NCBI GenBank assembly: GCA_017506865.1
Contig: JAFCMP010000090.1
Coordinates: 806,001-870,000, forward strand
Source of the DNA: Tribonema minus
Lineage: Eukaryota > Sar > Xanthophyceae > Tribonematales > Tribonemataceae
DNA: 64,000 nt
Reading direction: 5' to 3'
Numbering within the stretch: the first letter of the stretch is position 1; each line of letters opens with the position of its first letter. This document shows positions 2,547-59,356 of the stretch, one piece after another. A program made the position numbers and the translations under genes. Under the pieces are notes generated by a model. It had not been told where the DNA came from. It did not search any database and saw nothing but the letters and a program-made list of their open reading frames with translations.

Positions 2547-2771
2547 CTTGAGCAGATCACGCAAGCAACACACTAGCAACAGTGCCAGAGGTTGTGAATG
2601 CATGTGCATGTGGTGTTGCTGCCCAATTAAATGCTGAATCTTCGGGGATCGGCAAATAATAATCAAACTCCGGACCCCGGGATTCAAGCGTTGGAATGCA
2701 ACTGCGTTCTAACGCATCCGACCGTTTGCTTCCAGCAACAAATTCATTGCAGCAGCAGCACCCTGAAGCCA

Positions 2772-13000: not shown

Positions 13001-13620
13001 TTCAAGTTTAAAATAACTTCAAGTTTGTGTCAGAAGGCTTAGAATGGCGAGTACTCATCTAGGGACAGCTTGAACCTGCATCAGACTAATCTCACCTACA
13101 CTTTTGATGTTGAGCCATCATTATTGGCAGTTTATGGAACTTCAAGTACACACACAAGTGCAAGTGTGGGCCTCAAGGCTCGGTATGGTCGCTGCTCGTG
13201 TAGGGACAGCTCGAACCCGCACTAGACTGATCTCACCTACACTTTCGATCAGGAGCTTGATTTATTTGCACTTTACGAAAATCTAGCGAGCGTCGTACCG
13301 ACCCCATTTAGGGTCAGCCTCTGAGAAATACTTTTTTCGACAGGCCCGGCCTCAGGAACTTCAAGTTTAAAAATAACTTCAAGTTTGTGTCACAAGGCTT
13401 AGAATGGCGAGTACTCATCTAGGGACAGCTTGAACCTGCATCAGACTGATCTCACCTACACTTTTGAATTGAAGCCACGATTGTTTACACTGCGTGGTTA
13501 TTCTGCAACTCCAGGTTCATCACAAGTTCAAGTTTACTATGGTGACAAACAGTTTAGGGACAGCTTGGAGCTCTGCAAGCCTGACCTCACCTACGCTTTC
13601 GATCCAAGCCACAATTGATC
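10090..13620 (+). repeat. ~360-bp satellite, about nine tandem units
   Basis: The landmark TAGCGAGCGTCGTACC recurs at about 10410, 10759, 11119, 11480, 11841, 12202, 12563, 12923 and 13282, a period of about 360 bp. Each unit has two related halves, both containing TCTCACCTACACT. Each unit also carries two inverted repeats: ATCAGG-AG-CCTGAT, and GACCC-CATTTA-GGGTC. The ends of the array are degenerate. Frames of about 73 residues recur inside it as a by-product of the period. The array ends about 90 bp before polB. Confidence 0.93.
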
Positions 13621-13754
13621 TGGTACAGTAAAGTACACCTTTCGAACCAGGATTCGATGGTGAATCTGGGCGCAATTAGCAGCGCAAAATTCGAATCACC
13701 GTAAATATGTGTGGTACCATATGTGCAGCACAGAGTACGTCCATCACAACCCAA

Positions 13755-16700: not shown

Positions 16701-16935
16701 ACAAGACAGCACGAGGCATATGGCTGTGCTGGCGCCTCCAGAGGGAGAGGAGTCAAAGAAAAAGCCACGTCAGGCAGGGTTGGGGATGTTCGGAATGACA
16801 AGCAGCAGCGGCGCAAGCAAGTGGGCAGTGGAGGTAGGCAAGCCCAAGCGCAAGTCGGCACAGTCCAGCGGAGGGGGGCCAGCCAAGAAGTGTAAGCAGC
16901 AGACGACCTTGGTGTGGCGCACCGCCCCGAATTGA
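13755..16935 (+). CDS. polB: DNA polymerase family B (delta-like viral), three exons
   Basis: Replicative DNA polymerase with 3'-5' exonuclease. Exons are about 13755-14939, 15041-16006 and 16126-16935. Both introns have GT-AG ends (GTGAGA...CTGCAG, 101 nt; GTAAGC...TTGCAG, 119 nt) and both junctions are phase 0. Exonuclease motifs are YDLETTGLD (Exo I), GYNLTFDNKF (Exo II) and YYCAID (Exo III); the last lies just after the first junction, which confirms the splice. Polymerase motifs are DFASLYPNLM (A), KVACNSAYGILG (B) and GDTDSVFV (C). The second intron sits just after YYKKK and is followed by NYAAMLYE, reconstituting the conserved KK-Y block. The C-terminus is basic and Ser/Lys-rich. About 986 residues; an ATG at 13707 would add 16. 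All catalytic Asp residues are present, so it looks functional. Confidence 0.96.
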
Positions 16936-16945
16936 CATTTGCACT

Positions 16946-18070
16946 TTACTGCTCCTGTGTGCTCTCACTGCTGCTATCCTCACGCTCTAGTTGCCGTGCT
17001 GTAGTCAATTGCCTGAAATTATGCAGTCCGTTGATGAATGCTTGCACTTCTCTTGAAGTATGCAGGTTCCAATGCCTCTTGCCTCCCTTGTCCTCAAGAA
17101 ACCAGTTTACAATAGTGATCTTGGGAAAGTAAACGGCCAAGTCGTGCCAAGCATCATATACCCACTTGGCCTTGTCGAGGCCCTTGTCAGTACACGACAC
17201 CTCCCCAATGAAAATCGGCTTGCCGAACTGTGTGAGCTGAGAGTAGACATTGTCCTGTAATCGAAGTTTTAGGGACACCAGGCGTGAGCCGGCGTTGACG
17301 TATACGTCGACCCCTACTTGATCCACATATTTGCTACCCGGGTATAAATGCGCAAATGGCATGTCATCATTATGAGGGTTCTTGGCCATGAAAGTCAGCT
17401 GAAACTTCACAGGAGCATTCTCTTGCCGGTATATGTTGACCAAACGGCGCCATGCGCGCTTGAATGCTCTTATCTTGGCATTTGTGTAAGGGTATAGGCA
17501 GTATGGGTACGTGTTTTCAGAGTTGAACTCGTGAAGCTGACGTATCCAGACCATTTTGCCCTTAATTGCAATGGCCTTAGCTAGTTTGCGCACTGCGGAA
17601 TCGAAACGTCCATTGGCAATCTCTTCTATGGTGCCATCGAATTCTGTCACAAGCTGCAGTCGCTTGCCATCTGTACGTATGTACTTGTAGCCCACATCAC
17701 CGATGGGACGATAAACAGTGACAGTGTCAAATTGTATCTCCCAGTCTCGCTGTTTTTCGAACACTGTGCTGTCACCATGAAAGTATGCACCAGCATATGT
17801 CTTGCTCTTCACACCGTTGCCTTGTCCATATTCAATCTGGCTACTGTGACTATCATAGTACGTGCTGCTGCTGCCATTGATGAGGTCATTGTACAGTGCT
17901 TCTTGAGACGTGCTGCTGTCACCACCGCTATCACTGCTGCTATCACTGCTGCTTGACACACTTGCGGCGGCCTCATCTGATGTTGATGTGGTCGTTGTTG
18001 TGTAAGGCGGCGACAGCGCGCGCATGCATGGCAGACCGAACGCAAGTAGTAGCACAGACAAGCGTATCAT
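16946..18070 (-). CDS. Secreted GH26-like endo-beta-mannanase/glycosidase
   Basis: A 374-residue protein. Residues 1-19 form a signal peptide (MIRLSVLLLAFGLPCMRALS). A Ser/Thr/Asp-rich linker runs to about residue 70, and the catalytic domain follows. GH26-type landmarks are WIRQLHEFN (acid/base Glu181), LYPGSKYVDQVGVDVY, and FIGEVSC near residue 290, where Glu290 is the likely nucleophile. It probably cleaves beta-1,4-mannan or mixed beta-glucan outside the cell, for example algal wall or matrix polysaccharide at entry or exit; the role is inferred. It diverges from the HSF gene, with 138 bases between them. Family assignment is by motif, so another clan GH-A family is possible. Confidence 0.75.
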   Translation of the reverse strand: MIRLSVLLLAFGLPCMRALSPPYTTTTTSTSDEAAASVSSSSDSSSDSGGDSSTSQEALYNDLINGSSSTYYDSHSSQIEYGQGNGVKSKTYAGAYFHGDSTVFEKQRDWEIQFDTVTVYRPIGDVGYKYIRTDGKRLQLVTEFDGTIEEIANGRFDSAVRKLAKAIAIKGKMVWIRQLHEFNSENTYPYCLYPYTNAKIRAFKRAWRRLVNIYRQENAPVKFQLTFMAKNPHNDDMPFAHLYPGSKYVDQVGVDVYVNAGSRLVSLKLRLQDNVYSQLTQFGKPIFIGEVSCTDKGLDKAKWVYDAWHDLAVYFPKITIVNWFLEDKGGKRHWNLHTSREVQAFINGLHNFRQLTTARQLEREDSSSESTQEQ

Positions 18071-25996: not shown

Positions 25997-27104
25997 TTAG
26001 CGTGGTGTTAACTCTGAATCGAATAATTGCCTCAGCAGTTTGAGAAATGAAACTCTTCTCAGTTTCAGCTCTCTGCATACCTTCACCAAGTAGATGACGT
26101 GAAGGACATCATCCAGTGCTTTCAAGTAGCTCTTGACCGAGCTGATGTTGACTTGCCCTGACTGCAGATGAGATTGTAGGTTACTGTATCTGAGGGATAG
26201 CACTGCTACAGTGTCATATAATATACGAGCTTGGAGTTCCTGTACAAAGGCCTTTGAAGTCATGGAATGAGCTGTCTCCAAGTTCAGATCGGACTTGAGC
26301 CTTCTAAAGCTGGTCTCTACTCGCCAACGCATGCCATAGAGCTGCTTGATTTCTGTTGCGCTAGCGAAGAAATTGGTGAGGCACACATATGCCTTGCCAT
26401 CTATGAAGTACTTGAACCAGGTTGGCGTGTAAAAGCTTGCCACCCAGAGTTCTTACCACTGTGCATGCTGTTGTAGCAGTTGAGTTGAAAAACTGTTTGA
26501 CACCTTTGAATGCATCCCTTTTGAGCCTGAAGACCACCTTCACCTGAAGCTCATCAGCTCGCTCCAGCAGCTTTGATGAGTAATAACCCCTATCGAATAT
26601 CATAGTGTCCCCTGCCTTAGCCTTGGTCATGTGCTGAAGCGCAGATTTACGTTCATTGAAATGGTCAGACACTATGGCATCAAAGCAAGTCCTAGTCTCC
26701 ACATCTAACATGGATGACAGCATTGCCAGAGGTCGCTTGGCAGGACGCGACACAGGTTTATCGTTGGTGCGACTCCTGAACCCTTCTTTCACAAATGAGG
26801 GATGCACATGCACTTTAGAGCCGTCCACAGCATAAATGCGGTGGCCAGTTTGAAAAGGCTTTTGCATGGACTTGTTGATTGCTGCAAACACGTCATTGGG
26901 CAACTTGGCTCGTGCTTTGCAAAGTGCTTGAGGAGTGAACGCACTCTTGTCAGCGTCTACTATGTGTCGTAGGCCCCTCTTATTTACTGATGCAGCACAG
27001 AGAGAAGCAAAGATAGATGCTGTGTTAATTTTACGATTCCTTTTCTGCCATAGACAATCCGAGTGTGACAGCAGGGAGAAGAGGTGTTTGAAAAGGTCTT
27101 GCAT
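25997..27104 (-). pseudogene. IS4-type DDE transposase, frameshifted
   Basis: About 370 residues in two frames. The first frame (27104 to ~26450) has IYAVDGSKVHVHP (first Asp) and TMIFDRGYYSSK (second Asp). The second frame (to 25997) has YGMRWRVETSFRRLKSDL (catalytic Glu in the IS4 Y-x2-R-W-x2-E pattern). The reading frame changes near 26450, within the DNA read as VVRTLGG in one frame and LWVASFY in the other. All three DDE residues survive, so the break is recent or an assembly indel. Terminal inverted repeats were not found by eye. It sits next to Fanzor on the same strand. Confidence 0.85.
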
Positions 27105-35815: not shown

Positions 35816-37207
35816 TCAAGTTCGTCTCGTAGTGAAGTGCACCCATGCTGTGTTTGCCGGTCCACCAGCACTGATATGCTGCTGCAACCGCAAGTACGCT
35901 GCGTTGACAAGTTCTTCATTGCCGTGCAGTCTGCGTACCTCGTTCAGCTGCTCTAGAGTGAGACTGTGGTCTTTGATACATGACAAACTTAGTACGTGCA
36001 ATGGACACTCGCCACCCTGCTCAGCTGGGCGCTTGGCCGAGTCATGCATGAACTTACAGCACTTGGGGCATCCGTTAGTCAAAGAATTGATCGGAGCAGC
36101 TGCCGTCACTTGAGCTTTAAACAATCTTCTCTGCTCGTTATGCCGCTCTTGAACCTCGTCTTCTTCTTGCTGTCTTAACTGTGAGCGGCGCCGTCTTTCC
36201 CGCTCTTTGCGCGCTCTAGTGTCTGCCTCCTCTGTTGCCCTAGCGGCAGCCTCCTGTGCAGCCTTAGCAGCGGCAGCCTCCCGTGCGGCCTTAGCAGCGG
36301 CAGCCTCCTGTGCAGCCTTAGCAGCGGCAGCCTCCTCTGCCGCCTTAGCAGCGGCAGCCTCCCGTGCGGCCTTAGCAGCCGCAGCCTCCCGTGCGGCCTT
36401 AGCAGCGGCAGCCTCCCGTGCGGCCTTAGCAGCGGCAGCCTCCTCTGCCGCCTTAGCAGCGGCAGCCTCCCGTGCGGCCTTAGCAGCGGCAGCCTCCCGT
36501 GCGGCCTTAGCAGCGGCAGCCTCCTGTGCGGCCTTAGCAGCGGCAGCCTCCCGTGAGGCCTTAGCAGCGGCAGCCTCCCGTGCGGCCTTAGCAGCGGCAG
36601 CCTCCCGTGCGGCCTTAGCAGCGGCAGCCTCCTCTGCCGCCTTAGCAGCGGCAGCCTCCTCTGCCGCCTTAGCAGCGGCAACCTCCTGCATACGCCGCTG
36701 TATAGTGCCCTTGGCAACCTGCACAGCCCCGTCGTGTGCCGATTTAATGTCGTTGACATGTGCTGCTTCGGCTTCCCGCATGAGCGCCTGTGCACGGTGC
36801 TCCTTCTCCTGCTGGTACCGTTGTGTGGCCTCGTTGCGGGCTGCGTCCACGTCTGCACGGCGCCGCTCACGGATGCGTGCAAGCATTGCTTCAAGCTCGT
36901 CCTCCTGCCGCTGATACACAGCACCTGCCGTTGCGGCCGCAGCATTGCCGATGAAGGCCAATGTGTCGTGGTCGACCGCTTGCATGCTTGAAGCCTTTGC
37001 TGCAGCGACGGTGCGGTTGCGGTCGGCTGCAGATGTTGCGCGATCCAAGGCGTCCGAGAATGCGCGGCTAGCTTCTTGTAGTATGGTGGGGGGTATGCTG
37101 GTATCGCCTGCCAGGCCCATGCATTCGATGAAATTGTGCATGGTTTCATCCCCTTCGGCGCCACCTGCGTGCAAAGCGGACGTCATCACCGAGCGAGCTA
37201 CAATCAT
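35816..37207 (-). CDS. Ala-rich single-helix repeat protein with C-terminal Cys motif
   Basis: About 463 residues from ATG 37207 (ATG 37186 is an alternative). The N-terminal ~100 residues are globular. The middle is a TolA-like, uninterrupted helix built from 9-residue repeats EAAAAKAAR/Q/E (about 16 copies), flanked by charged helix (ARIRERRRADVDAARNE). The C-terminus has NGCPKCCKFMHDSA and ECPLHVLSL, a probable small zinc site. It is likely a rigid spacer or scaffold protein. Function unknown. Confidence 0.65.
   Translation of the reverse strand: MIVARSVMTSALHAGGAEGDETMHNFIECMGLAGDTSIPPTILQEASRAFSDALDRATSAADRNRTVAAAKASSMQAVDHDTLAFIGNAAAATAGAVYQRQEDELEAMLARIRERRRADVDAARNEATQRYQQEKEHRAQALMREAEAAHVNDIKSAHDGAVQVAKGTIQRRMQEVAAAKAAEEAAAAKAAEEAAAAKAAREAAAAKAAREAAAAKASREAAAAKAAQEAAAAKAAREAAAAKAAREAAAAKAAEEAAAAKAAREAAAAKAAREAAAAKAAREAAAAKAAEEAAAAKAAQEAAAAKAAREAAAAKAAQEAAARATEEADTRARKERERRRRSQLRQQEEDEVQERHNEQRRLFKAQVTAAAPINSLTNGCPKCCKFMHDSAKRPAEQGGECPLHVLSLSCIKDHSLTLEQLNEVRRLHGNEELVNAAYLRLQQHISAGGPANTAWVHFTTRRT
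36235..36690 (-). repeat. 27-bp coding minisatellite (Ala-rich helix)
   Basis: About 16 copies of the 27-mer around GCGGCAGCCTCCCGTGCGGC (given on + strand). Variants encode Arg, Gln, Glu or Ser at one position. The period is a multiple of three, so copy-number change keeps the frame. Confidence 0.95.
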
Positions 37208-40247: not shown

Positions 40248-40663
40248 GCCTAGCCGAGTACCACCAATCATGCTAGGCATGAACAATCCCTATGAGACGT
40301 ACCAAGGATATTCATGGTGGACGACTGCAGCGATAGCGAGTAACTTTGATCAACTGAACTTGAAGTGCATTTACACGCCCTCTAAGCAGCGGAGCGCGGT
40401 TGAGATTTCCACACTGGTCAATGCATATCAGGCCATCGCTCACCTGCCATTTGAAGTCAGCAGCAGCGTCGACGGGTGTGCGGCAGAGTAAAAATGCGGC
40501 GGATAATTTCGGGGCGTCACAACCGACGTGGTCAACGAAAGGGCTTCGGAGCCTGGTTCAGGTGTGCTCGGGTTTCCGTCACGTTTTTCGGAGCTCACTT
40601 TGGTCAGCCCACCCGTTTGTATCCAGTCTAGCAGAGCAGCGCCATCGCCTCCTTTCTCGGCAG

Positions 40664-43600
40664 ATGATGAGCGTTGCAGCCAGTGGAGATGGGGCCAGCG
40701 CCAGCGCCAGCGCCAGCGCGTGGAAGAACTGCAAAGGCGGCGTCATCGGGCTCGACCTCGGCACCACAAGGTCCTGCGTTGGCGGTGCTTCCATGGCTGA
40801 CAACGAGCCGGCTGCGCATATCCTCGACCTTGAGGGCGGGCTCACCACCACACCGACCTGCATTGGCTTCATGCCCGACAACACCATGCTCTTCGGCAAC
40901 CAGGCCAAGGAGGAGACGCTCCTGGAGTGCCCCCAGAATCTGATCTACAACGTGAAGCGCATCATCGGCAGGAAGTACAGCGACAACGCAGTGCAGGAGG
41001 ACATACGTGCTGGCACCATCTCATTCACCTTGAGGGCTGACGACAATGACGACATCCTCATCAAGGTCAGCAGCTCACTATTCTCCGCCATATCGCGCTT
41101 CGCTGTAGCTGATGCTTCTGCTGAAGCGTTGCATCCACGATGATGCCTTCCGGCGCCGTACGGTGCACGCTCTCTGCTGGTTGTATGTCTAGGTGAAGTG
41201 GTAGCATCATGACGGACACTACTATGCTGACCGGGCTGCCATGCTGCTGCTGGTGGTGTTCGTATTGGTATGCTGCTGCTGGTGGTGTCGGTACTGTGCC
41301 GCACTTGCTGATCCTTACTTGCCCCATTCTCTTTGCTGCTTCAAAACTGTCATGTTCATGTGCTAGGACACAAGTGTCAGCATATGGAAACAAACTCTCT
41401 ATGTTTACAAAAAAGCTGCTTCAGAGTAAATTACACATGGTTGCATATTCTGTAACCTAACAGTTGTGCTCATTGCACTTTTGTTGATCGCGTCCAGGTG
41501 ATGGAAGAGAACGGGGAGCCAGTCTGGATGTCGCCCATAGTCTACACGTCAATCTTCATCCGCCACTTGGTGGAGTGGGCCGCCCAGAAGCTCGGGACCA
41601 AGGTCCGCACGCGGTCATTACTGTGCCGGCCAACTTCAAGGACGCTCAGAGGACGGCCACCCTCCAAGCCGCCTATTTGAGCGGATTCGAGGAGAACCAT
41701 GTGCGCCTACTTCAAGAGCCCACCGCCGCCGCATACGCCTTTGGCCTCGACAAGAACGGCACTTCTACCAACGTCGTTTTCGACCTCGGCGGCGGCACGT
41801 TCGACGTGTCGGTGGTCTTCAGCGACAACGGCGACTGCACGGTGAAGGCCACCAAGGGGGACATGAACCTGGGGGGGGACAACTTCACGCAGGACATTGT
41901 TGATTGGTGCCTCAGCGAGATCAGGGTGCAGGCCAGCGCTCAAGTCGCCGAAAGCGTCAGGACCAACGCGGAAAGCATGGCGATGCTGCGGGAAGCTTCC
42001 AACAAGGCGAAGCACACCCTATCCGACAGCACGACCGCAACCATCCAGGTCCGCGCGCTGTGGGAAGATGCAGACGGCAAGGCAGTCAACTTCAAGTTCA
42101 CCATCAGCCGTGCAGACTTCGAGGACCGCAACAAGCTGCTCTTCGATGAGTGCCGCGAGACCGTCACCGCTGCGCTCAAGGACGCGGGGCTCAACAAGGG
42201 CGACATCGACCACGTCATCCTGGTCGGCGGCAGCACTCGGATCTGGGGCATTCGCCAGCTACTGTCAGACTACTTCGGCAAGCCCCCCAACCGCCAGGTC
42301 CACCCCGACGAGGCAGTGGCGATGGGAGCGGCGACATATGCTCTCAGTCTCGCCAGCAGCCAGCTCAGCACTCCTTCGCTGAAGGACGTCATCCCACTGT
42401 CCCTGGGCATCGCCCTCAGCGACGGCTCCATGAGCTTCATCATCGAGCGCAACACGCAGTACCCCATCTCCGTCCGTCATCCCGTCACCAACAGCGAAGC
42501 CAACCAGAAAGCCGTGCGCATCGACGTGTACGAGGGCGAGCGGAGCTGGGCGGAGCAGAACACCTTGCTCGACTCCTTCATCCTGCACATCACACCACTG
42601 CCGCTGGCGACTGCCAAACTCATGGTGACCTTCACCGTGAACGAGCACGGCATCCTAATTGCTTCAGCGGAGGAGCTCTTCAGCGACAACAAGACGGAGC
42701 TGCGCGTCATCAAGCGCACCAACAGCATATCTCCAGAGAGACTTCAGCTGATGCTCGAGCAGGTGGGATGCAGCAGCATAAATGTTTCATGTGTTTGTAT
42801 TTTGTTGTAATTTCAACTTGGCATTGCCAGCACTCTTGAAACCCGCTTTTCTTATCATATGACATTATCGCCAGAGAGACTTCAGCTTATGCTCGAGCAG
42901 GTGCAAAGCAGCAGCAGGTTCTTGCATCTCACTTTCCTATGACATGTAAGTTGCAAGTTATAATTCATGCACTGTATGTTGCTGCATATGATGTAGATGT
43001 GTTCATAAGCCTATGCACTGTTGTAGAACAGAAGCGCTTGTGCCACCAATTTACGTTCAGCTCCCTTGCCTACTTGTACTTCAATGCAGAAAATTGTCTG
43101 TTTATGTAAGGGCTATTGCATTCCCGTCACATATCATAGCCATAGGATAGATCTTTCCTACCTTGCCACGATGCTCAACTCTAACCCCGACCTACCCAAA
43201 GATACCATTCATTTCGATTCGATTCCTCTGTCTTATTGTATTTGATTGCAGCAGCAGGTTGTCTGTTTTATACGTGTTCTATGTGCATGATCATCATCAA
43301 TCAAGCCATGCAACAAAACCTACTGGTTTAATGTTGCTTGTCGCATGTTGTTGTATGAAGCATACCTCAGCCTTTGCTTTGAGCAATTATGGTTGTGATG
43401 TGAGTGAATTACTCTCCTCCTTGTCTTGCAGGTTCATGATGCCATCTCATCTCTACATGCTGCCACCTCACTGTACATTTCTGATATATACCTTGCTTCA
43501 GTTTGTATTTGGCAAGTGTCTTTTGGATGTTGTTCTGGTGCTCATCACCTGATACATGATCCACCATTGACACTGCCCGTTTTCGATGCACAACACGCAC

Positions 43601-44959: not shown

Positions 44960-46960
44960 CAGTGATAGTATGAGCGCAAGTGTCAGTGTGAGAGTGACAG
45001 GGAGGCTTTGTTGAGTGTAAGTGTGAGAGTGTACACAACAAGTGTAAGCGCTTACGCTAAGTATGATTGTCAGTATCTGAGGGAGTGTAAGAAGAGGGTA
45101 AAAGTAGGTGTAAGTTTTAAGAGTGTGAGTAATACATCACGCATGCACGTGTGTCAGTGTGTCTGAGTGTGAGTGTGGACATAGGAGTGATAATGTAGGC
45201 GGTGTAAGTACAATTGTGAGTGCAAGTATAAGTGTTGGTGCATCCAAGTGCAAGAGTGAGATGTAGGTGTAGGTAAAGTGCGAGTGTCAGTGTAAGTATA
45301 AGTGTCAGTGTATTGTGTAAGTGCAAGTGCGAGTGTGAGTGCGGTGTAAGTGTGAGTGTAGGTGTAGTGTTGATGTCAGTATGAGACTAAGTGTAAGTGT
45401 GAGTATAAGCGCTAGTGTAGCTGAAGTGTGTGTAAGTGTAAGTGCAAGTGTGAGTGTAAGTGTGAGTGTGAGTGCGGAGTAAGTGTGAGTTCATGTAAGA
45501 ATGAGATTTAGAGTAAGTGTGAGTGCGAGGGTAAGTGTAGTGTGAGTGTAAGTTTAAGTGTAAGTATAAGTGCTAGGTTAAGTGTGAGTGTAAGTATAAG
45601 TGTTGGTGTCAGTGTAGGTGTAAGTGTGAGTGTTGGTGTCAGAGTGAGCTGAAGTGTAAGTGCGAGTGTAATTGTAACCGCGAGTGTAAGTGTATGTGTT
45701 GAGTGAGTGCGAGTGCGAGTGTCAGTACGAGTGTAAGTGCGAGTGTAAGTGTAAGTGCGAGTGTAAGTGTGAGTGTGAGTGCGAGTGTGAGTGCGAGTGT
45801 AAGTGTGAGTAGTGTCAGGGTGCGATTATGTGTAAGTGCAAGTGTGAGTGCGAGTACAAGTGTCAGCGAGTACAAGTGTCAGGTTGAGATAAGTGTCAGG
45901 TTGAGATTAAGTGTAAGTGCAAGTGTGAGTGCGAGTACAAGTGTCAGCGAGTATAAGTTTTAGTGTAAGTGTAAGTGTAAGTGTAAGTGTGAGTGTAAGT
46001 GTACGTGTAAGTGTGAGTGCAAGAGCAAGTGTAAATGTGAGTGTAAGTGTCAGTGTAAGTGTGAGTGCAAGGATGTAAGTGTGAGTGCAAGGATGTTAGT
46101 GTGAGTGTCAGAGTAAAGTTTGCAAAGTGTAAGTCAAAGTGTAAGTGTGAGAGTAAAGTTTACAAAGGAAGTGCAAGTGTAAGTGTCAGAGTAAAGCAAA
46201 GTAAGTTTAAGTGCAAGTTTGAGTGTGAGTGTAAGTGTGAGTGTCAGTGTAAGTGTCAGTGTAGGTGTGAGTGTGAGTGTGAGTGTAAGTGTGAGTGTAA
46301 GTGTGAGATTGAGCTGAAGTGCGAGTGAGTAATTTAAGTGTAGGTGTAAGTGCAAGTGTATGTGTAAGTTTAAGTGCAAGTTTGAGTGTGAGTGTGAGTG
46401 TGAGTGTGAGTGTGAGTGTGAGTGTGAGTGTGAGTGTGAGTGTGAGTGTGAGTGTGAGTGTGAGTGTGAGTGTCAGTGTAAGTGTAAGTTTAAGTGCAAG
46501 TTTGAGTGTGAGTGTAAGTGTGAGTGTAAGTGCGAGTGTAGGTGGAAGTGTGAGTGTAAGTGCGAGTGTAGGTGGAAGTATAAGTGTAAGTGTAAGTGTA
46601 AGTGTAAGTGCGAGTGTAGGTGTAAGTATAAGTGTAAGTGTAAGTGTAAACGCAGGTGTAAGTATGAGTGCAGGTGAGTGTGAGTGTGAGTGTCAGTGCG
46701 AGTGTAAGTGTAAGTGTAAGTGCGAGTATAGGTGTGGATTAAGTGTGAGTGTGAGTGTAAGTGCAAGTGTAAGTGCAAGTGTAGGTAAGTGCAAGTGTAA
46801 GTGCAAGTGTAGGTGTGTGTATAAGTGTGAGTGTGAGTGTAAGTGCAAAGTGTAAGTGTGAGTGTAAGTGCAAGTGTAAGGGTAAAGTTTGCAGAGGAAG
46901 TGGAAGTGGTAAAAGTTTGTCAGTGTAAGTGTAGTTGCAAGTATACTATTCTTTTTGCAT
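44960..46960 (+). repeat. Splice-donor-like satellite 2, ~2 kb of GTAAGT/GTGAGT words
   Basis: A near-continuous run of 6-bp words, mainly GTGAGT, GTAAGT, GCAAGT, GCGAGT and GTCAGT, all in the same + orientation. A pure (GTGAGT)n stretch lies at about 46383-46470. GTRAGT is the eukaryotic 5' splice-site consensus. The array ends just before the 3' end of the histidine kinase gene. Confidence 0.95.
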
Positions 46961-46982: not shown

Positions 46983-48842
46983 CTATGTCACCTGAGGAAG
47001 CCAGCGCAGAAGCATGGCCTTGAGCGCCAACATGTCAAATGGTTTTGAGAGGTGATCGTTCATACCACTATTCATGCTGTTTTGCACATCTGCATCTAAA
47101 GCGCTAGCACTGATAGCAATGATGGGAACAGTCAGCCCAGCCTGCCGTAGCTGTTGTGTAGCTTGCAACCCGTCCAGCTTAGGCATCTGAATGTCCATCA
47201 GGACTACATCTACTTTCTCACCATCTTCAAAAAATGCTATGGCTTCCAGCCCGTCCCTAGCCGTATGCACTTTTAAGCCCAATGAAATGGCCATCTTGCT
47301 TGCGATGGCCAAATTGATTCGATTATCATCGACGAGCAAAACACTCCCTCTTAACTTTGCAGCGTGAAGCTCTGGACGCTTTACAACCAGCTCACCACGG
47401 CTTAATGGAATGCAGCATCGAAATGATGAACCAGTCAGCGGTGTGCTCTTGTACGACAAGCTTCCATTCATCAACTCTACCAGATTTCTGGCGATTGCTA
47501 ACCCCAAACCAGTGCCTCCATACTTTCTATCATTAGAGTGGTCCAGTTGAGTAAAAACTTGGAAAATGAGTTCGCTGTCACTTTCAGCGATTCCTATTCC
47601 AGTATCCTCGACTGTGATGACAAGGCATGGTGCCTCCACCGCATAAGTAATTCGCACGCTTCCTCGTTCTGTAAACTTTATAGCATTGCTGACCAGGTTC
47701 AAAATCACTTGGCGTAAGCGCTCAAAGTCCCCCATGATAACAAAGGGAGTCGGTAGGTCCACCTCCTTGCATACTTGGACTGGTTTGCCCCTTGCAAGCA
47801 CTGTTGCAATGTTGTGGACTGTGTTGATGAGATCATGCAAATCGAAAGCCCCCACGTTGAGCTCAAACTTACCTGAATCCATCTTTGAAACATCAAGAAT
47901 GTCGTTAATGATTGTCATTAGGGATGAAGCGCTCTGCTGCAAGTTACTGAGACACTGCTTTTGCTCCTCGTCAACAAGCTTTTCACTCAGTATGTCCGCC
48001 CAGCCGATGACACCGTGCATTGGAGTGCGAATTTCGTGAGACATGTTTGCAACAAATGCACTCTTAGCGTTTGATGCAGCGACTGCCTCTTCGCGCGCCT
48101 TCAGCAGCTCTTGCTCATATTGTTTTTGCATGGTGACATCTCGCACAATAGCAATAGTATGGGTCATGAGGTCAATCTTGACGGGTGACAGTGAGACGTC
48201 AACATCCATGATGCGTCCATCTTTGTGCTGGCCGATAAGTGGCATGCCTGCACTCATCATCTTCCGCCTGCTGGGCTCGCTTGCATATTTGACACGATGT
48301 TTGACGTGTATATCACGGTACTTGGGGGGCATGAGCATCTCGACTTTGGCGCCCATCATTTCTGTCTTAGTGTATCCAAAGATGTTCTCCATCTCTGTGT
48401 TCGTCAGGACAATGTGACCCTCTCTGTCAACCATGGCCACCCCGTCCGGAGCCGCTTCCAGTACACTGCTGAGGTTCTGCTCTAGTACACGGCGGTCTGT
48501 TATGTCACGGATTACTGCCATGGTCACATACACACCAGCAGACAGGATCTGAGGGGAGAGTGAAATGTCAACAGGGAACTCACTTCTGTCTCTTTTCAAC
48601 CCAGAGAGCGCCTTGCCAAGACCCATGGGGCGGCGCTTCGGACACGATGAGTATTGCACCCTGTGAGCCACATGCACTGTACGAAATCGTTCTGGTATCA
48701 GGTCTTCCAGTAGCATACCCACAACCGTCTCATACCCAAACATTGTGTCAGCCAAGTGATTAGAGCACACCACATGCCCGCTGCTGTCTATTGCAATTAC
48801 TGCATCAGGAGAGAGTTCTAGAAATGAGGTAAGTGCTGGCAT
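46983..48842 (-). CDS. Hybrid sensor histidine kinase, PAS-PAS-HisKA-HATPase-REC
   Basis: 619 residues from ATG 48842; upstream in-frame sequence lacks ATG. Two PAS domains (residues ~5-120 and ~125-245) are each followed by PAC-like ends (VIRDITDRR, IVRDVTMQK). HisKA has FVANMSHEIRTPM (phosphorylated His269). The ATPase shows LNLVSNAIKF (N box), VEDTGIGIAE (G1) and YGGTGLGLAI (G2). The receiver has LLVDDNRIN and VVLMDIQMPKLDG (Asp550). There are no transmembrane segments, so it is a soluble sensor, perhaps of light, redox or a small ligand. Every catalytic residue is present. Hybrid kinases are known in brown-algal phaeoviruses. It may feed a host phosphorelay. Confidence 0.95.
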   Translation of the reverse strand: MPALTSFLELSPDAVIAIDSSGHVVCSNHLADTMFGYETVVGMLLEDLIPERFRTVHVAHRVQYSSCPKRRPMGLGKALSGLKRDRSEFPVDISLSPQILSAGVYVTMAVIRDITDRRVLEQNLSSVLEAAPDGVAMVDREGHIVLTNTEMENIFGYTKTEMMGAKVEMLMPPKYRDIHVKHRVKYASEPSRRKMMSAGMPLIGQHKDGRIMDVDVSLSPVKIDLMTHTIAIVRDVTMQKQYEQELLKAREEAVAASNAKSAFVANMSHEIRTPMHGVIGWADILSEKLVDEEQKQCLSNLQQSASSLMTIINDILDVSKMDSGKFELNVGAFDLHDLINTVHNIATVLARGKPVQVCKEVDLPTPFVIMGDFERLRQVILNLVSNAIKFTERGSVRITYAVEAPCLVITVEDTGIGIAESDSELIFQVFTQLDHSNDRKYGGTGLGLAIARNLVELMNGSLSYKSTPLTGSSFRCCIPLSRGELVVKRPELHAAKLRGSVLLVDDNRINLAIASKMAISLGLKVHTARDGLEAIAFFEDGEKVDVVLMDIQMPKLDGLQATQQLRQAGLTVPIIAISASALDADVQNSMNSGMNDHLSKPFDMLALKAMLLRWLPQVT

Positions 48843-49400
48843 GTCTTTTACACTCGCCAAGATTAAAGTGCAGAGCGGCGGAACATAGCAACTACAGGGC
48901 GCCACTTTCGATTTGTACAATTTCTACCAAGATGAGTATCACTTTCGATTTTTGTACACATTTGACACAATGACAGATTCGATATTTGAACACCTATTAC
49001 AAACTTCGATTTGACAATTTTAGATTAGGCAACAACTTGGTTGTATTCGATAATGGTGCATTTGTACTTGCACTGACAACGGTGTATCAAAATTTAAGTG
49101 TGAGTTTCGAATATTCTAATGTCAAAGTATGCTGAGGATGAAATTCGATTTCTGCAGGGGCTGAGCTTGAAACAACACAAGGCACTTTAACAACGCATAC
49201 ATATGGCCCAATCGATCTGATTCAATTAAGTTCAAGGTTGTTTCGATCTGCACACCCTCAGTGTCAAATAAATTGAAATTCGATAAGATTCGAGTTGCCA
49301 AAGTTCACAACACGAATAAAAGAGATTCAAGGCAGAGATTCGAACATTAATTGCTGCTCTCAAAGTAGAGGTGCTCACACTCACTTCACTCTTTGCAAAT
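48843..49400. promoter_or_regulatory. AT-rich divergent intergenic region rich in TTCGAT/ATTCGA words
   Basis: About 560 bp between the leftward kinase and the rightward coiled-coil gene, with no gene. At least ten TTCGA/TCGAA-core words occur (for example near 48907, 48935, 48981, 49005, 49048, 49105, 49142, 49272 and 49342), often as ATTCGAT. It is a probable bidirectional promoter region; the function of the word is unproven. Confidence 0.5.
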
Positions 49401-50135
49401 ATGAACACTCCGCCGCAGTGGCCGCCGTGTGCACCATGGCCTGATGTGTCTCAGCACATTGGCAATACTTACCTTCAGGTTGCTTCTATGCAGCCCATCA
49501 TAACAGACCTGCAACAGCAAAAGGAAGCTGCAGAGCTCAAGGTGAACGGCCTGAGGGCATCAATGGAAGCACTGGCCAAGGATGTGACGTTCACTGAAGA
49601 TGCTGTAGAATACCTTTCACAGAAGAGAGATGTGCTGGGTCTGGAGATGAACAACCTTGACACTTGTGTGTCGCAGATTACAGAGCAGCGCATCAGCAAA
49701 CAGAAGCAACTAGCCGAGGCCAGGGAGCTGTTCAGCACAGCTCAGGATGATGTTCAGTCTCTGACGTCAAAAGTGAAGAGCGAGCAGGCCCGTTTGGCGC
49801 AGGCACAGGGCGAGCTGACGGCAATGACCATGGCCCGGCTGCAGCTTCAGACTGATATTACAAGTATCTCAGAGGAGATTAAAACGCTGCGAAACACCTT
49901 GGAACAGGTACGATGCACCAAACAAGAGCTTGCTGACCAAACTGCTGGAGTGTCCGCAGGGTTACTTCCGGGTGTGGGAAAAACAGCGGCTTTCACAGAG
50001 GTGCTGAATACAAACCCCACGTGTGGTGCTGTCGTGGCCCCGAGGACGTGGCGCAATAATAACAAGAAGGGGGGGAACTACCGTTCTCGAAACAAGCAGC
50101 GCAAGGACACTGCAGCGCCTGCGGTGCCTAAATAA
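49401..50135 (+). CDS. Coiled-coil protein with basic tail
   Basis: 244 residues from ATG 49401. A Pro/Trp-rich start is followed by a continuous coiled coil at about residues 30-180 (heptads such as LRASMEALAKDVTFTEDAV). The C-terminus is Asn/Lys/Arg-rich (RNNNKKGGNYRSRNKQRKD), probably binding nucleic acid or serving as a nuclear signal. No family was recognised. It may be a virion or scaffold protein. Confidence 0.7.
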   Translation: MNTPPQWPPCAPWPDVSQHIGNTYLQVASMQPIITDLQQQKEAAELKVNGLRASMEALAKDVTFTEDAVEYLSQKRDVLGLEMNNLDTCVSQITEQRISKQKQLAEARELFSTAQDDVQSLTSKVKSEQARLAQAQGELTAMTMARLQLQTDITSISEEIKTLRNTLEQVRCTKQELADQTAGVSAGLLPGVGKTAAFTEVLNTNPTCGAVVAPRTWRNNNKKGGNYRSRNKQRKDTAAPAVPK

Positions 50136-50160
50136 ACCTTGCAAAACTGGTGTTTGGACC

Positions 50161-50535
50161 ATGCAAATTTTAATGCTGCTCTTGTTGAAGCGCATGGCAA
50201 TGATGCTGGATGACTTGATGTGCTTATCACCAGAAGTTGTAAATGTAATTACCTCCTACTGTGACATAGACGCCAAACGCAACCTTGGCATGAGTCCATC
50301 GCATCTCTGTGCACGTCATCCTTCGCTCAAGCCTGTTTCCAATTGCATTGTGCGAAATCGCAGATGCACCGCAGCAGGGAGACTGCGCACATATCGACTG
50401 CTTTACCTGCGCGGAACGAGCAAAGCGCTATGCACTTTGGTAACGCACAACTACACGGCACATTGGTTGCGCATTTGGCAAGGCGGCACACTCAGTTTGG
50501 TAGATCAAGACGAGATCCAATTTGAGCATGCATGA
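50161..50535 (+). CDS. Small protein with F-box-like segment
   Basis: A 124-residue frame from ATG 50161, 25 bp after the coiled-coil gene. It contains LDDLMCLSPEVVNVITSYCD, which resembles the L-x2-L-P-x2-hh-x2-I start of an F-box, then a beta-rich, basic remainder. Short host-like F-box proteins are common in large DNA viruses. Assignment is tentative. Confidence 0.45.
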   Translation: MQILMLLLLKRMAMMLDDLMCLSPEVVNVITSYCDIDAKRNLGMSPSHLCARHPSLKPVSNCIVRNRRCTAAGRLRTYRLLYLRGTSKALCTLVTHNYTAHWLRIWQGGTLSLVDQDEIQFEHA

Positions 50536-50642
50536 TTTCGATCACCACTTCACAATGTGAGCATGCAGCAAAGTGGAGATGGAGACTCAAAAAATTGAAT
50601 GTGTAACACACACTGTATTGAAGCAAACAACACCAACCCCAC

Positions 50643-52205
50643 TTACTCAAAGAAATCGTCGATGCTCGTCTGGCGTGACTGCGCGTACCGGTCACCAAGC
50701 TTGAGGATGGCGCGATTGGCGAGACTCTCGGCCCGACGCCACATAGCGGGCCAATCGCTGTCACTGACCCCCAGTGATGTAGCGAGGTCATGCGACACCT
50801 CCTTATGCCCCTTGTTTGCGTTGACAGAGACGTTGAGCACGCCAGGCACTTGCAGATCCGGCAGTCTGTCACGTGTGCGTGTTACTGTGTACCCTGCACC
50901 CAACAGCGCCACCGCGTCAAGGGCGTCCTTGGGCTTGTGCGCATGGTATCTGTGTCCATCATGGAAGAAGGCCTGCTTGTCTACAAGCATGTCTGGCATG
51001 ATGCACAAGTCGCCAAGCTGGAGGCGATGGCTGAGGGCATGTATGAATGTCTCGATATCGTCGCCTCCTGTCCACTGAATGAAAGCTGTTGCGTCCGGGA
51101 ACATTTCCTCGATCGACCTCGTGCCAATGTTGTTGATGTGGCAAATCTGACCCAGGCAGTGCTCAAGTCTCCGGCCATGTGTGCATCGCTTGTGTATTAC
51201 ATCAATAGCGTCGTCGCCTGCGCAAGATCTGCAGTACCGAATGCCTGGCTCCCCAGGCTTCTCGTAGCAGGGTTGGACATTACCACATGTGGCGCACATT
51301 TTGTATATCTTTTCATAGATGTAGACAGCATCAGGTCCCCCACACACGCGACAAAATCCGAGCCCTGGGAGCTCAGGGATTTCGTAAGTGGCATGCTTTA
51401 CATCACACATTGAGCACATCTTATTGATAACATCCACTCCCTGTGGGCCCGCGCAACGACGGCAGTACTTGACACCAGGCTCATCGGGCTTTTCAAAGTA
51501 AGGTTGATGGTCTCCGCATGTGGGGCACATGTTGTTGTGAACATCAAATCCCTCTTTCCCTGCGCAGCCTCTGCAATACTTCACACCTGGTTCCCCAGGC
51601 TTCTCATAATATGGTAAATGGTCTCCGCAGATTGGGCACATTTTGTGAGTTTTGTTGAAAGCGTCCTCTCCCCCACAGGGTCTACAGTACCAGACGCCAG
51701 GCTGGTCAGGCCTCTGATACGCGCCGCTTTTTCCACAGGTATGGCAGCGGGGGGCGGTGGCAGAGATCATGTCTGATGTCTTGTGGTCACCGCACCATTG
51801 AGGCGCCCAAAAGGGAAAGCTGTAAACAGAACGCTTTCCACATCCGTCTTGACGGCATATGAAGTGTGTCTTGTGAGCATCGCAATACTTGGTTTGCCTC
51901 TTGCCTGTGTTGCCTTTGACCTCACCATCGCAGCCAGGCACAAAACAAATCCTGGCAGCAGGTGGGGCAGGACCAGCTGCGAGAAGGGTTGACTCAAAAG
52001 GAATGCTAACCTCACTGGGGTTGAGCTGCTCCCAGAAGCGCATGACGTAGTGGCGAACAGCAAGCTTCTCCCTCAGGCGCAATATGGTGAGCGCCCGCTT
52101 GTCAATCTGCGGAGTCTCATATGCGCCGTCATCAATGCGGGCTCGCTTCACAGGCTGCTCGTCATTGTCTCCAAAAGCACATATGGTGGCATTGATAGGC
52201 GCCAT
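50643..52205 (-). CDS. EsV-1-7-like zinc-repeat protein with Vsr-like nuclease domain and C-terminal PIP box
   Basis: 520 residues, intronless. Residues 87-345 form a chain of about seven Cys-rich units. The first two are C-x4-C-x15-C-x2-H (C87 to H111, C117 to H141), close to the EsV-1-7 repeat. The next five use C-x2-C-x16/17-C-x2-C, with 12 residues to the next unit and a YxxPxxPGxxYC core. Residues ~360-450 look like a Vsr/restriction-type nuclease: IMPDMLVDKQAFFHDGHRYH, with Asp405, Asp416, His421 and Asp427, then LLGAGYTVTRTRD. The last residues, RQTSIDDFFE, are a canonical PCNA-interacting (PIP) box, Q-x2-I-x2-F-F. A PCNA-tethered DNA nuclease is the simplest reading. The repeat, nuclease and PIP calls are by eye. 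Confidence 0.72.
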   Translation of the reverse strand: MAPINATICAFGDNDEQPVKRARIDDGAYETPQIDKRALTILRLREKLAVRHYVMRFWEQLNPSEVSIPFESTLLAAGPAPPAARICFVPGCDGEVKGNTGKRQTKYCDAHKTHFICRQDGCGKRSVYSFPFWAPQWCGDHKTSDMISATAPRCHTCGKSGAYQRPDQPGVWYCRPCGGEDAFNKTHKMCPICGDHLPYYEKPGEPGVKYCRGCAGKEGFDVHNNMCPTCGDHQPYFEKPDEPGVKYCRRCAGPQGVDVINKMCSMCDVKHATYEIPELPGLGFCRVCGGPDAVYIYEKIYKMCATCGNVQPCYEKPGEPGIRYCRSCAGDDAIDVIHKRCTHGRRLEHCLGQICHINNIGTRSIEEMFPDATAFIQWTGGDDIETFIHALSHRLQLGDLCIMPDMLVDKQAFFHDGHRYHAHKPKDALDAVALLGAGYTVTRTRDRLPDLQVPGVLNVSVNANKGHKEVSHDLATSLGVSDSDWPAMWRRAESLANRAILKLGDRYAQSRQTSIDDFFE

Positions 52206-52503
52206 GGTCTCCGGTATTGTGTTGTGGTGACAAAGCTTGGTGGTAGCTTTGAGAGGTTGTGAAGGTGCTGCAGCTTCTGACCTTTATTGCACATTATTAA
52301 ATCACAGATTCGTACACGCGAATCCTGTTAAAAATATCACATGATTTGGTATCTTGTTTCTATATTCAAATCACGTTGCAAGCAGCAATTTGTATGATCC
52401 TTGTCAAACCACTTGTAACACAATAACGAAATCGAATACGGAAGCAGTCGCCCTTGTACAAGTGTGCATCAACATATGCTGACGGTGAAAAAAGCAGTCC
52501 GGT

Positions 52504-53391
52504 TCACAACGAGTACATGCTACTTTTGGATTGCCACGTTCCGTTGCTGCGAGTTTCGAAGTGAAGCGAAGTGCTGTTGGCCAAGCCACCACCACCATAC
52601 ACAACTAGTCTCCATGCCCCATCTGCATCAGAGCCAAACTGCAGTGACATGGCGGGCGTAGTGTTACTAAGAGTGGCGAGATTGCGGTCATCAAGCACAA
52701 TGGCAGCGAGGTCATCTCCTGTTGTGCTAGTCGTCCCCCCACTGAACGTCTCAGGGGCAGTGAAAGTGATGGCCTGACCGCGTATCGCCTCCACAGTCAT
52801 TTGACTAGTAGCGGCCCCGAGAGCTCCTACGTAACGGTAGAACGAAATCTTCGGAGGGGCAGCAGCAGACACACCAGTTATGGTCGAAATGGTATAGAAT
52901 GTCAAGGTCCCCCCCTCACAGTCCACGACCCAGGCCCCGGACCCAAACGGTATCTGTGCTCCTGTGCTCTTGTATACAGTGACCATGTAACTCCCTGCTG
53001 AATCGTAATTGAAAGGAACACTGTTCTGCAGGACTCGACCATAAGTTGCATCCAGAGGACATTCATATGCAGCACCGTTAGAACCAGTAACCTCTGTGAG
53101 AGTAACTTTCGAATAGCGCTTGATCTGTGGGTAGAGGGTGCTTGACTTGCCGACGAGCGACCCATCGAGTGAAGCACCTACGTCATCAAGAGTTACGTTG
53201 GCGAGGTCAGATGGTGCGACATCAGGAATGGCCTCGCTGTAGAACTGCGATTGAAACACGGCGGGACGGCTGGGCCTGCTGGGTTCAGAGTAGAAAGCAG
53301 AATTTTCATTGGTGGACGGCTTGCCCATCAATTTCTTGAACAACAGCCCAGTCTGCTGCGCAGTGCTGAACGATGTAGCCGTGGTGCTCAT
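52504..53391 (-). CDS. Probable virion protein of the IKRYSxxxLTEVxGSNG type
   Basis: 295 residues from ATG 53391. The N-terminus is Ser/Thr-rich. From about residue 90 the protein is all-beta (LYPQIKRYSKVTLTEVTGSN, YGRVLQNSVPFNYDSAGSYM, IPFGSGAWVVDCEGGTLTFY). This resembles a beta-rich module I associate with structural proteins of algal giant viruses, from memory. A T-rich tract (GTATTTTTTTTGTTTGT on the coding strand) lies just upstream of the start, as also seen before the fibre gene. It is likely a virion component expressed late. Confidence 0.6.
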   Translation of the reverse strand: MSTTATSFSTAQQTGLLFKKLMGKPSTNENSAFYSEPSRPSRPAVFQSQFYSEAIPDVAPSDLANVTLDDVGASLDGSLVGKSSTLYPQIKRYSKVTLTEVTGSNGAAYECPLDATYGRVLQNSVPFNYDSAGSYMVTVYKSTGAQIPFGSGAWVVDCEGGTLTFYTISTITGVSAAAPPKISFYRYVGALGAATSQMTVEAIRGQAITFTAPETFSGGTTSTTGDDLAAIVLDDRNLATLSNTTPAMSLQFGSDADGAWRLVVYGGGGLANSTSLHFETRSNGTWQSKSSMYSL

Positions 53392-53559
53392 GATGACACA
53401 ATCGCCTTGTATAATACAGGACAAACAAAAAAAATACACCATATCATGCACAGGTTGATGTATTACATGTACGGATCTTGAGTGGTGATACAATCGAACT
53501 CTTATGCCACTGCCTCCTACTGCCCGCTCATACACGCAAAGCGAGGCCAACATCGGCAT

Positions 53560-53750
53560 GCGGAATACCCCCCATGATACCCTCCCTGCTACCCCGTACA
53601 CACAAAGCCCATGTGGGCATGCTTATGGCACTACACTCATCATACATACAAGGCGACCTGGGCGTGCTTATGGCACCACCCTCATCATACACACGATGGC
53701 GACCTTGGCGTGCTTAGGGCGCCACCCTCAACACCCTGCTGGCACGTACA
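53560..53750. repeat. ~45-bp tandem repeat, about four units
   Basis: Units share GGCGTGCTTATGGCACCACC followed by CTCATCATACACAC-type sequence, with decay at both ends. The right end overlaps the last codons of the Zn2Cys6 gene. Confidence 0.75.
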
Positions 53751-58279: not shown

Positions 58280-59356
58280 TCACACATAACTCCAAGAGTA
58301 CCCGTACGCCGTCTTCTGTCTTCCCGCGCAACAAGCGGAGATGTTGCTGTGACCACCCTCGTTACCGACACTTCGAGCGGCAGCGCGTACGCTCACAAAG
58401 TCCTCTGTGAACGCACTGCCACAGAGCGATGTGCGCCTCACCGCCGTTCCAGGAGGCGGTGGCATCAACCCGGTACGGACGGCGTGCTGTGTGTTCTCCG
58501 AGTACGTGACCCTCTCCAGGTTGGACACGACATTACAGAGCTTATCACCATTGATGTGGTTCACCAATGGTCTCGATGAGTCTTCGGGCAAGTGAGCGTC
58601 GGCTATCAGACGGTGCACTCTGTACTCCGACCGCATGATGTTGACGACCCGGTACTCCTTGTACTTTCCCAGCGTTCCCCGAGTCACCGCCCCTCATGGA
58701 GTCTTGATGAATCCCGTGTCGGACGCATAATAACCTGTCGCTCCCTTGATAGACGTAGGCGGAATCTCCTTCCACACATGCGACGACCCTTCGAGTAAGT
58801 CACTGGGAGCATACGCAAATGTGTATCCGTATGCGGTTCCACCCGTCTTCATCGCCGCGTACACCTTGCGCATGGCCGTCGTCGGGTTCGATGTGGGTGC
58901 TATCGACCTCAATAGCGTTTCGTCCATTCTGGGAAACACTGACACGGTGCCGCCTTTACTGACAGTGATGGCGCGGTGCATGATAGGCCGGGAGCGACCC
59001 ACTCTGCTCTCCGAGTTGGCCACCTGTTGAACTGCTGTCGCCAGTCGCAGATTGACGAGTCTATTGTCGTCTCTCACTCGGTTGATGTGGTCAATGCTCA
59101 TTCCACGGGGAACTGGTCGGTAATTGAAAGCTGTCCATACCAACACGTGCACGGCTCGGGGGACGGCTTTTCCCTTAACTTTGAAAGTTACTTTTGAGTA
59201 ACCGCATATCCGTCTCTCCGCGAGACGCTTGCCCGTTCTATTGTTGATGATATGACCATCGGAGGTGGCACTGTATGTAGACGATATCATCAACACCCGG
59301 GTGTCTCTGTGCTCATCACCAACCGCTTTGGTCACCAGCGGCTTTGGAGACGCCAT
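58280..59356 (-). pseudogene. Tandem NUMOD4-HNH-NUMOD1 homing-type endonuclease, interrupted by one in-frame TGA
   Basis: One reading frame of about 359 codons with a single TGA at 58696-58694. Module 1 (59356 leftward) has an HNH_3-type core, VHVLVWTAF...MSIDHINRVRDDN...NLRLAT, then a NUMOD1-like tail (SNPTTAMRKVYAAM, TAYGYTFAY). Module 2 starts before the stop (KEIPPTSIKGATGYYASDTG, NUMOD4-like) and continues after it with YRVHRLIADAHL, VNHINGDKLCNVVSNLERVT and a second NUMOD1-like tail (VRAAARSVGNEG, KTAYGYSWSYV). The two halves appear to be a duplication. The stop falls between GFIKTP and GAVTRG. It is free-standing, with no visible host intron. It is either a one-base pseudogene or a readthrough gene. 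Confidence 0.85.

Follow-up and report, generated by a model that had tools for sequence, protein, structure and literature searches.

A predicted EDxHD nuclease with an EsV-1-7 zinc array and a PIP-like tail in giant-virus insertions of Tribonema minus, and its displacement between co-linear insertions

A 520-residue open reading frame of the xanthophyte alga Tribonema minus (P0001) joins an array of EsV-1-7 zinc repeats to a predicted EDxHD nuclease domain and a PIP-box-like tail, and its nuclease is replaced by another at the corresponding site of a co-linear viral insertion in the same genome. Based on sequence comparison, P0001 may well be a DNA endonuclease of viral lineage that is guided by its zinc array and acts as a mobile, polymorphic cassette, a reading we hold with middling confidence.

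Architecture of the protein and its family

The window, that is, the whole stretch of DNA analysed, comprises 64,000 nt of T. minus contig JAFCMP010000090.1 (positions 806,001-870,000 of the forward strand, assembly GCA_017506865.1). Contigs of the 158.18-Mb genome (554 contigs) are labelled such that the window is C90:806001-870000. Features of the locus, in window coordinates, are as follows.

50643..52205, minus strand: open reading frame P0001, 520 aa, ATG start; EsV-1-7 array, predicted EDxHD nuclease and PIP-like tail
51951..52205, minus strand: N-terminal residues 1-85, which include KRAR (by eye an NLS-like motif) and are retained in both the C90 and C179 alleles
51783..51947, minus strand: two classic EsV-1-7 units, C-x4-C-x15-C-x2-H, residues 87-141
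51222..51746, minus strand: five all-Cys units, C-x2-C-x16/17-C-x2-C, residues 154-328
51138..51185, minus strand: terminal Cys cluster, C341, C350 and C355-H356, from the family alignment
50817..51137, minus strand: predicted EDxHD (Vsr/DUF559-type) nuclease core, residues 357-463, from hhalign, paralogue Pfam matches and conservation
51105..51107, minus strand: E367, 35/35; by-eye counterpart of Vsr E25
50991..50993, minus strand: D405 (Vsr D51), 35/35
50958..50960, minus strand: D416 of DG-x3-H, at the position of Vsr H64, 35/35
50943..50945, minus strand: H421 (Vsr H69), 34/35, one gap
50925..50927, minus strand: D427 (Vsr D97), 35/35
50649..50672, minus strand: QTSIDDFF, PIP-box-like C-terminal tail, residues 512-519
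50926..50999, minus strand: stretch with an orphaned remnant in C179 (L102 2183-2256; 89%, 74 bases)
52504..53601, minus strand: neighbouring open reading frame, no function assigned
49373..50537: left flank of the swapped cassette, conserved in C179 at 94.6% identity

A preliminary description of the sequence had reported two C4H units followed by five all-Cys units, and both sets were borne out (residues 87-111 and 117-141; 154-177, 190-214, 227-251, 264-288 and 304-328). The 12-residue spacer it ascribed to the array held at five of the seven gaps, counting the gap to C341, while the other two measured 5 and 15 residues. The PD, DG-x3-H and D block and the RQTSIDDFFE tail were likewise present as described and are common to relatives of the protein.

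P0001 matched 111 stretches of the genome (E up to 10). The family set analysed here consists of the window and 40 further fetched loci (41 in total) and omits a few matches limited to the N-terminal or array part. Protein searches returned five database relatives (two from T. minus, two JGI proteins and one ENA protein), and none were found in scans of IMG/VR.

Cassette displacement between co-linear insertions

Between C90 and C179, six marker/nuclease pairs are shifted by 621-646 kb, which indicates that the viral insertions on these contigs are co-linear; the window appears to lie in, or at the edge of, the insertion on C90. Compared in 250-base steps, the flanks of the window locus were mostly 90-99% identical to C179, with dips to 55% (49001-49250), 80% (49251-49500) and 82% (52251-52500). 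The first of these is a second strongly differing stretch between the contigs, beside the nuclease. The left-flank match stops about 105 bases beyond the P0001 stop codon. The neighbouring protein was 97% identical between C90 and C179 (dS 0.12) and the N-terminal ~85 residues of P0001 were kept (85% DNA identity over 51950-52349); the nuclease domains were 53-54% identical (dS 1.75). Between the stop codon of the new gene and the conserved flank, C179 retains 74 bases that are 89% identical to window positions 50926-50999 and read as the old catalytic core, PDMLVDKQALFHDGHMYHAHKPKD. In the gene tree, the window sequence joined those from C21 (97/92) and C112 (99/93), not the co-linear C179 copy.

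We compared the five nuclease loci of the C90 insertion with C179. The nuclease was replaced at the window locus (C90:857 kb), conserved at C90:1120 kb (95% aa identity, dS 0.10), where the left flank aligned and the right flank did not, and strongly diverged between alike flanks at C90:1166 kb (80% aa identity, dS 1.16). The tree places the alleles at 1166 kb close together, and both divergence and exchange with a close relative are therefore possible there. The C179 site matching C90:1106 kb had no nuclease; an unrelated frame of 328 aa stands there, bordered by flanks with 95% and 97% identity. Likewise, no nuclease was found at the site matching C90:936 kb within 2.6 kb past the left flank, the one flank compared (92-94%). 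The gene at C90:936 kb is itself a mosaic: its N-terminal part, and a C-terminal remnant that lies downstream, are like those of a dispersed lineage of the family (described below), with a different nuclease in between. The uneven flanks (49001-49500, and the right flank at 1120 kb) show that parts other than the nuclease change too.

Recombination between paralogues could suffice for such swaps without any cleavage. The swaps might reflect no more than ectopic recombination between repeats of viral insertions that are decaying, with no biological function behind the mobility. Such a view is compatible with the other explanations considered below and agrees with the broken family copies (L113, L124, L125, L132, L134), the repeats in the flanks and the divergent or unalignable stretches besides the nuclease. 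We nevertheless consider it unlikely, because open frames have been kept with dN/dS below 0.4 and the neighbouring gene at the window locus, at the identity and dS given above, was not replaced. The pattern of displacement is closer to that of homing endonucleases or polymorphic toxins than to repair by Vsr. Polymorphic toxins (CdiA/Rhs) are secreted bacterial toxins with immunity genes; they share with the P0001 locus a kept N-terminus, a swapped effector part and an orphan remnant downstream, but the neighbour of P0001 at 52504-53601 has no assigned function.

Relationship of the C-terminal domain to Vsr and DUF559

Conservation was assessed on an alignment of 35 C-terminal domains, and hhalign comparisons used a profile of 32 family sequences. 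E367, D405, D416 and D427 were invariant (35/35) and H421 was present in 34 of 35 rows; together they match the EDxHD residue set, in the order which we take to be that of the motif. Loss of Asp405, Asp416 and Asp427 in homologues, which would have counted against the preliminary description, was not seen in any of the 35. Among the terminal Cys cluster, C350 and C355 occurred in all 35 rows, C341 in 33 and H356 in 19.

The 32-row profile matched Vsr at 94.6% (E 6.9e-8) and DUF559 at 86.2% (E 4.9e-6), each E-value referring to one comparison, with reversed controls at 0.1% and 0.2% and maxima over 60 permutations per target of 1.8% and 4.4%, respectively. A six-sequence profile gave 82.5% for Vsr and 50.8% for DUF559, scores that none of 200 permutations reached, while a profile of P0001 and its T. 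minus relative P0002 alone was weak (5.1% and 21.7%). P0001 had no Pfam nuclease match of its own, and no Vsr family match was obtained in Pfam for it or any other protein scanned. Two divergent paralogues are at or over the DUF559 (PF04480) gathering score of 20.6: L115 at 22.2 and L123 at 20.6 (equal as printed). One weak MTES_1575 match among the paralogues fell under its cut-off. AlphaFold models were of low confidence (pLDDT 53.5 and 46.1). dN/dS was 0.08-0.36 in all 11 pairs compared, which share members, and the domain is under purifying selection. Taken together, the profile comparison, the invariant catalytic set and the DUF559 scores of two paralogues support the relationship of the C-terminal domain to Vsr/DUF559-type (PD-(D/E)XK, EDxHD) nucleases, and with it the Vsr-like assignment first made from the window.

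In the hhalign alignment with E. coli Vsr (PDB 1vsr, 1cw0), P0001 matches the positions of D51, H69 and D97 in the same register, PD...DG-x3-H...D...L-x2-GW/Y-x-V. E. coli Vsr has H64 where P0001 has D416, though four of the nine Vsr proteins used also have D-G. Vsr, which is paired with Dcm in E. coli, further differs in that its H69 and D97 stand about 20 residues further apart (the segment between them is mostly absent from all six rows compared, with at most a few extra residues in the 35-row alignment) and in lacking a zinc array or PIP motif. The DUF559 and MTES_1575 families share with the P0001 family E-x-D-G and the spacing of the next D, although F414 stands in place of the E of E-x-D in 20 of 35 rows, P0001 included; YcjD, the DUF559 protein compared, has 117 aa and neither EsV-1-7 units nor a PIP motif. 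The EDxHD phage homing enzyme I-Bth0305I (PDB 3r3p), unlike P0001, also has no zinc array or PIP motif. An Rfam scan, as a check for intron context, gave no matches. Vsr-like nucleases are already known from eukaryotic viruses, since the available text of a mirusvirus study reports 16 intron-borne Vsr-like genes (PMC12768974).

Conservation of the PIP-like tail

P0001 was the only one of 470 window frames (stop to stop, at least 60 aa) with a canonical Q-x2-[ILMV]-x2-[FY]-[FY] motif in its last 20 residues. Of the 30 family rows that could be used, 28 carried a relaxed form (Q-x2-[ILMV]-x2-[FYWH]-[FYWILMVA]) and 11 the canonical one; shuffling the tails over 1000 rounds yielded at most 8 relaxed and 1 canonical, a test that overstates independence because the rows are related. 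The x positions vary (TS/DD, SL/TD, GF/TE, RT/DD) while the Q and hydrophobic positions are kept, and the final position is often non-aromatic (WL, YM, FL). In a set of six sequences, the window included, the aromatic ending noted at first is kept in four (Q-x2-h-x2-F-F), and the remaining two end in Q-x2-I-x2-W-L; a conserved PIP-like tail is supported by the relaxed count. The P0001 tail is a canonical PIP-box motif, by which the protein may dock on PCNA, and the genome holds both host-like PCNA (C508 and C31, the stronger matches) and divergent PCNA genes.

Such a tail, with Vsr among the closest profiles and a C5 methylase open reading frame in the window (1431-2687), would also suit a repair nuclease of virus or alga that is coupled to replication, a counterpart of Vsr in eukaryotes that PCNA would bring to mismatched or damaged DNA. 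We regard this as distinctly improbable, given that a single genome holds 41 loci, that alleles are swapped and some sites carry no nuclease, that most of the Vsr H69-D97 segment is missing in six of six rows, that ~48 kb separate the methylase from P0001, and that arrays reach 15 zinc units, which in our opinion would be unexpected for a repair enzyme. The preliminary description had proposed either replication-coupled repair or degradation of host DNA, and as stated neither is supported: the family is large, partly mobile, allele-swapping and in good part situated within endogenous giant-virus DNA, such that a selfish or competitive nuclease fits better than housekeeping repair.

Viral setting and distribution of the family

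Much of the nuclease family sits in endogenous giant-virus DNA. MCP genes were found at 10 genome places (including C90:1095 kb, C179:470 kb, C112:1104 kb, C21:307 kb and C40:414 kb), VLTF3 at eight (including C90:1016 kb and C179:388 kb), and divergent PCNA genes at C90:1241 kb, C179:595 kb, C112:1509 kb and on C223, C1, C144 and C278. Several contigs with divergent PCNA also carry MCP or VLTF3. Nineteen of the 41 loci share their contig, or their part of it, with MCP or VLTF3 (C90 5, C179 3, C223 6, C21 2, C112 1, C9 1, C40 1); VLTF3 is ~110 bases from one member (C21) and 2.4 kb from another (C223), and MCP is ~1.3 kb from a third (C40). The neighbouring open reading frame is the sole marker at four loci on C346, and divergent PCNA at one on C1. 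At 17 of 41 loci none of MCP, VLTF3, PCNA or neighbour-ORF markers was found. The neighbouring frame (52504-53601) occurs at ten genome places, grouped from 13 matches, and adjoins a family nuclease at seven of them.

Among the matches listed, many of the marker-free loci belong to one dispersed lineage, which has repetitive flanks in common and is perhaps borne by a transposon-like carrier. Its members (L104, L105, L109-L114, L124, L132) share flanks and repeat arrays, and many of their tails read KQSLMT[DN]FF. The 17 loci away from the viral markers searched, including this lineage, would suit a host-encoded antiviral or genome-defence nuclease family that is by chance in or near viral insertions. 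That explanation is no better placed than the repair nuclease, and we think it similarly improbable, as 19 of 41 loci are on MCP or VLTF3 stretches, three of them within ~2.5 kb, the nuclease pairs with the neighbouring frame at 7 of 10 of that frame's places, and one orthologous pair is shared between the co-linear insertions.

Three copies (L126, L127, L129) are 98-99% identical over 3.5-5.4 kb, which indicates recent duplication; the C40 copy (L129) is near MCP. Matches to the P0001 N-terminus also occur at C112:983450-983635 (residues 16-82) and C179:1003022-1003327 (residues 15-124), near which the P0001 genome search gave no nuclease match, and the N-terminus may thus occur alone. One study (PMC13236599) cites a previous proposal of xanthoviruses as the sister clade of phaeoviruses and itself describes phaeovirus-like tyrosine recombinases in Tribonema.

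The EsV-1-7 zinc array

In the Pfam scan P0001 matched EsV_1_7_cys (PF19114) with E 3.1e-5 at 24.2 bits, below the gathering score of 25 bits, as did P0006 (24.4 bits). Relatives with the same C-terminal domain exceeded 25 bits (P0003, P0004, P0005 and all eight paralogues scanned), the best reaching E 8.2e-173. The drift from C4H to other ligands first noted in P0001 recurs in the family: 16 of 26 ORFs of at least 350 aa had one or two C4H units with an array of other ligands, mainly C1C, C2C, C3C, C4C or C2H. Six of the 26 had C4H units only, L103 had a mixed array with four C4H, L100 and L122 had no C4H unit within the open frame, and L121 had no unit by the search pattern. The C4H unit came first in the proteins whose order was inspected (P0001-P0004, C179:231 kb, C90:1106 kb).

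Arrays in the family reach 15 units. In two of them, at C90:936 kb and C179:231 kb, variation was concentrated at few unit positions, namely position 9 (2.3 and 2.8 bits, respectively), position 11 (2.1 and 2.0 bits) and position 35 (2.7 and 1.9 bits); a third array, of C1C type, had different variable positions. So few variable positions per unit are compatible with reading of DNA sequence by the array. There is precedent for EsV-1-7 units with a DNA-acting enzyme, since an Ectocarpus Tc/mariner transposase carries an EsV-1-7 domain according to the accessible part of its description (PMC12477816). This transposase, TcMar-2_Ec32, and the IMM and other EsV-1-7 proteins of Ectocarpus have EsV-1-7 units in common with P0001, and the former shares its predicted action on DNA; the portions of the sources available mention no such nuclease or PIP motif in them. 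In the accessible text of the EsV-1-7 literature searched, outside which most subscription papers fall, no nuclease fusion is described. Least probable of all is a catalytically dead, array-based DNA-binding regulator, akin to the zinc-finger transcription factors that EsV-1-7 proteins are hypothesised to be in the available text of PMC12629598, because the catalytic residues are invariant or nearly so in 35 domains and the domain is under purifying selection.

Proposed function

If P0001 is a zinc-array-guided endonuclease of viral lineage, the EsV-1-7 array would read DNA sequence, the PIP-like tail would dock the enzyme on host or viral PCNA at replicating DNA, and the nuclease would cut viral genomes in which its own allele is missing or different. 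Repair of the cut could then spread the allele in a homing-like manner, or the rival virus could be excluded. A possible functional analogue is the intron endonuclease of phage PhiPA3, a viral nuclease that acts against another virus in interference competition in the account available (PMC11620839), but its system and host are different and the likeness is one of role only.

More tentatively, and with considerable doubt on our part, the giant viruses of xanthophyte algae may carry a polymorphic arsenal of clamp-tethered, array-guided EDxHD nucleases whose cassettes are displaced in contest between co-infecting or co-resident viral genomes. New array-plus-nuclease cassettes would then displace old ones behind the kept N-terminus and leave orphan catalytic fragments, in the manner of bacterial polymorphic toxins, and EsV-1-7 repeats would form a novel type of modular zinc repeat that reads DNA.

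The family would be one of viral nucleases in which an EDxHD domain is united with a zinc array and with a tail that binds the clamp. The displacement of cassettes from one co-linear viral insertion to the other would be a record of conflict or homing that is testable allele against allele. EsV-1-7 repeats gain a direct biochemical setting, since as many as 15 of them stand in one array joined to a probable nuclease, and their DNA binding and specificity can thereby be tested in vitro.

Other features of the window

Pieces of a DNA polymerase B lie in different frames at 13707-16935 (plus strand), and its exonuclease part is weakly like Pol delta (E 7.4e-10), which suggests that this polymerase is divergent and probably viral. 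It follows a 361-bp tandem repeat of 8.9 copies (10266-13467), whose relatives were found by DNA search in the window, C179, C65, C312, C434, C515, C268 and other contigs. A 27-bp repeat has 16.5 copies that are 94% alike (36242-36686), and a long AGTGTA-type repeat with strong GC skew (0.29-0.37; 45283-46885) is adjoined by a hybrid histidine kinase (46983-48920). Besides the C5 methylase, the window holds a GH26-like ORF (16946-18070), a DDE transposase (26361-27104), HSP70 sequence in two separate ORFs (40400-42810) and an HNH endonuclease (58694-59356).
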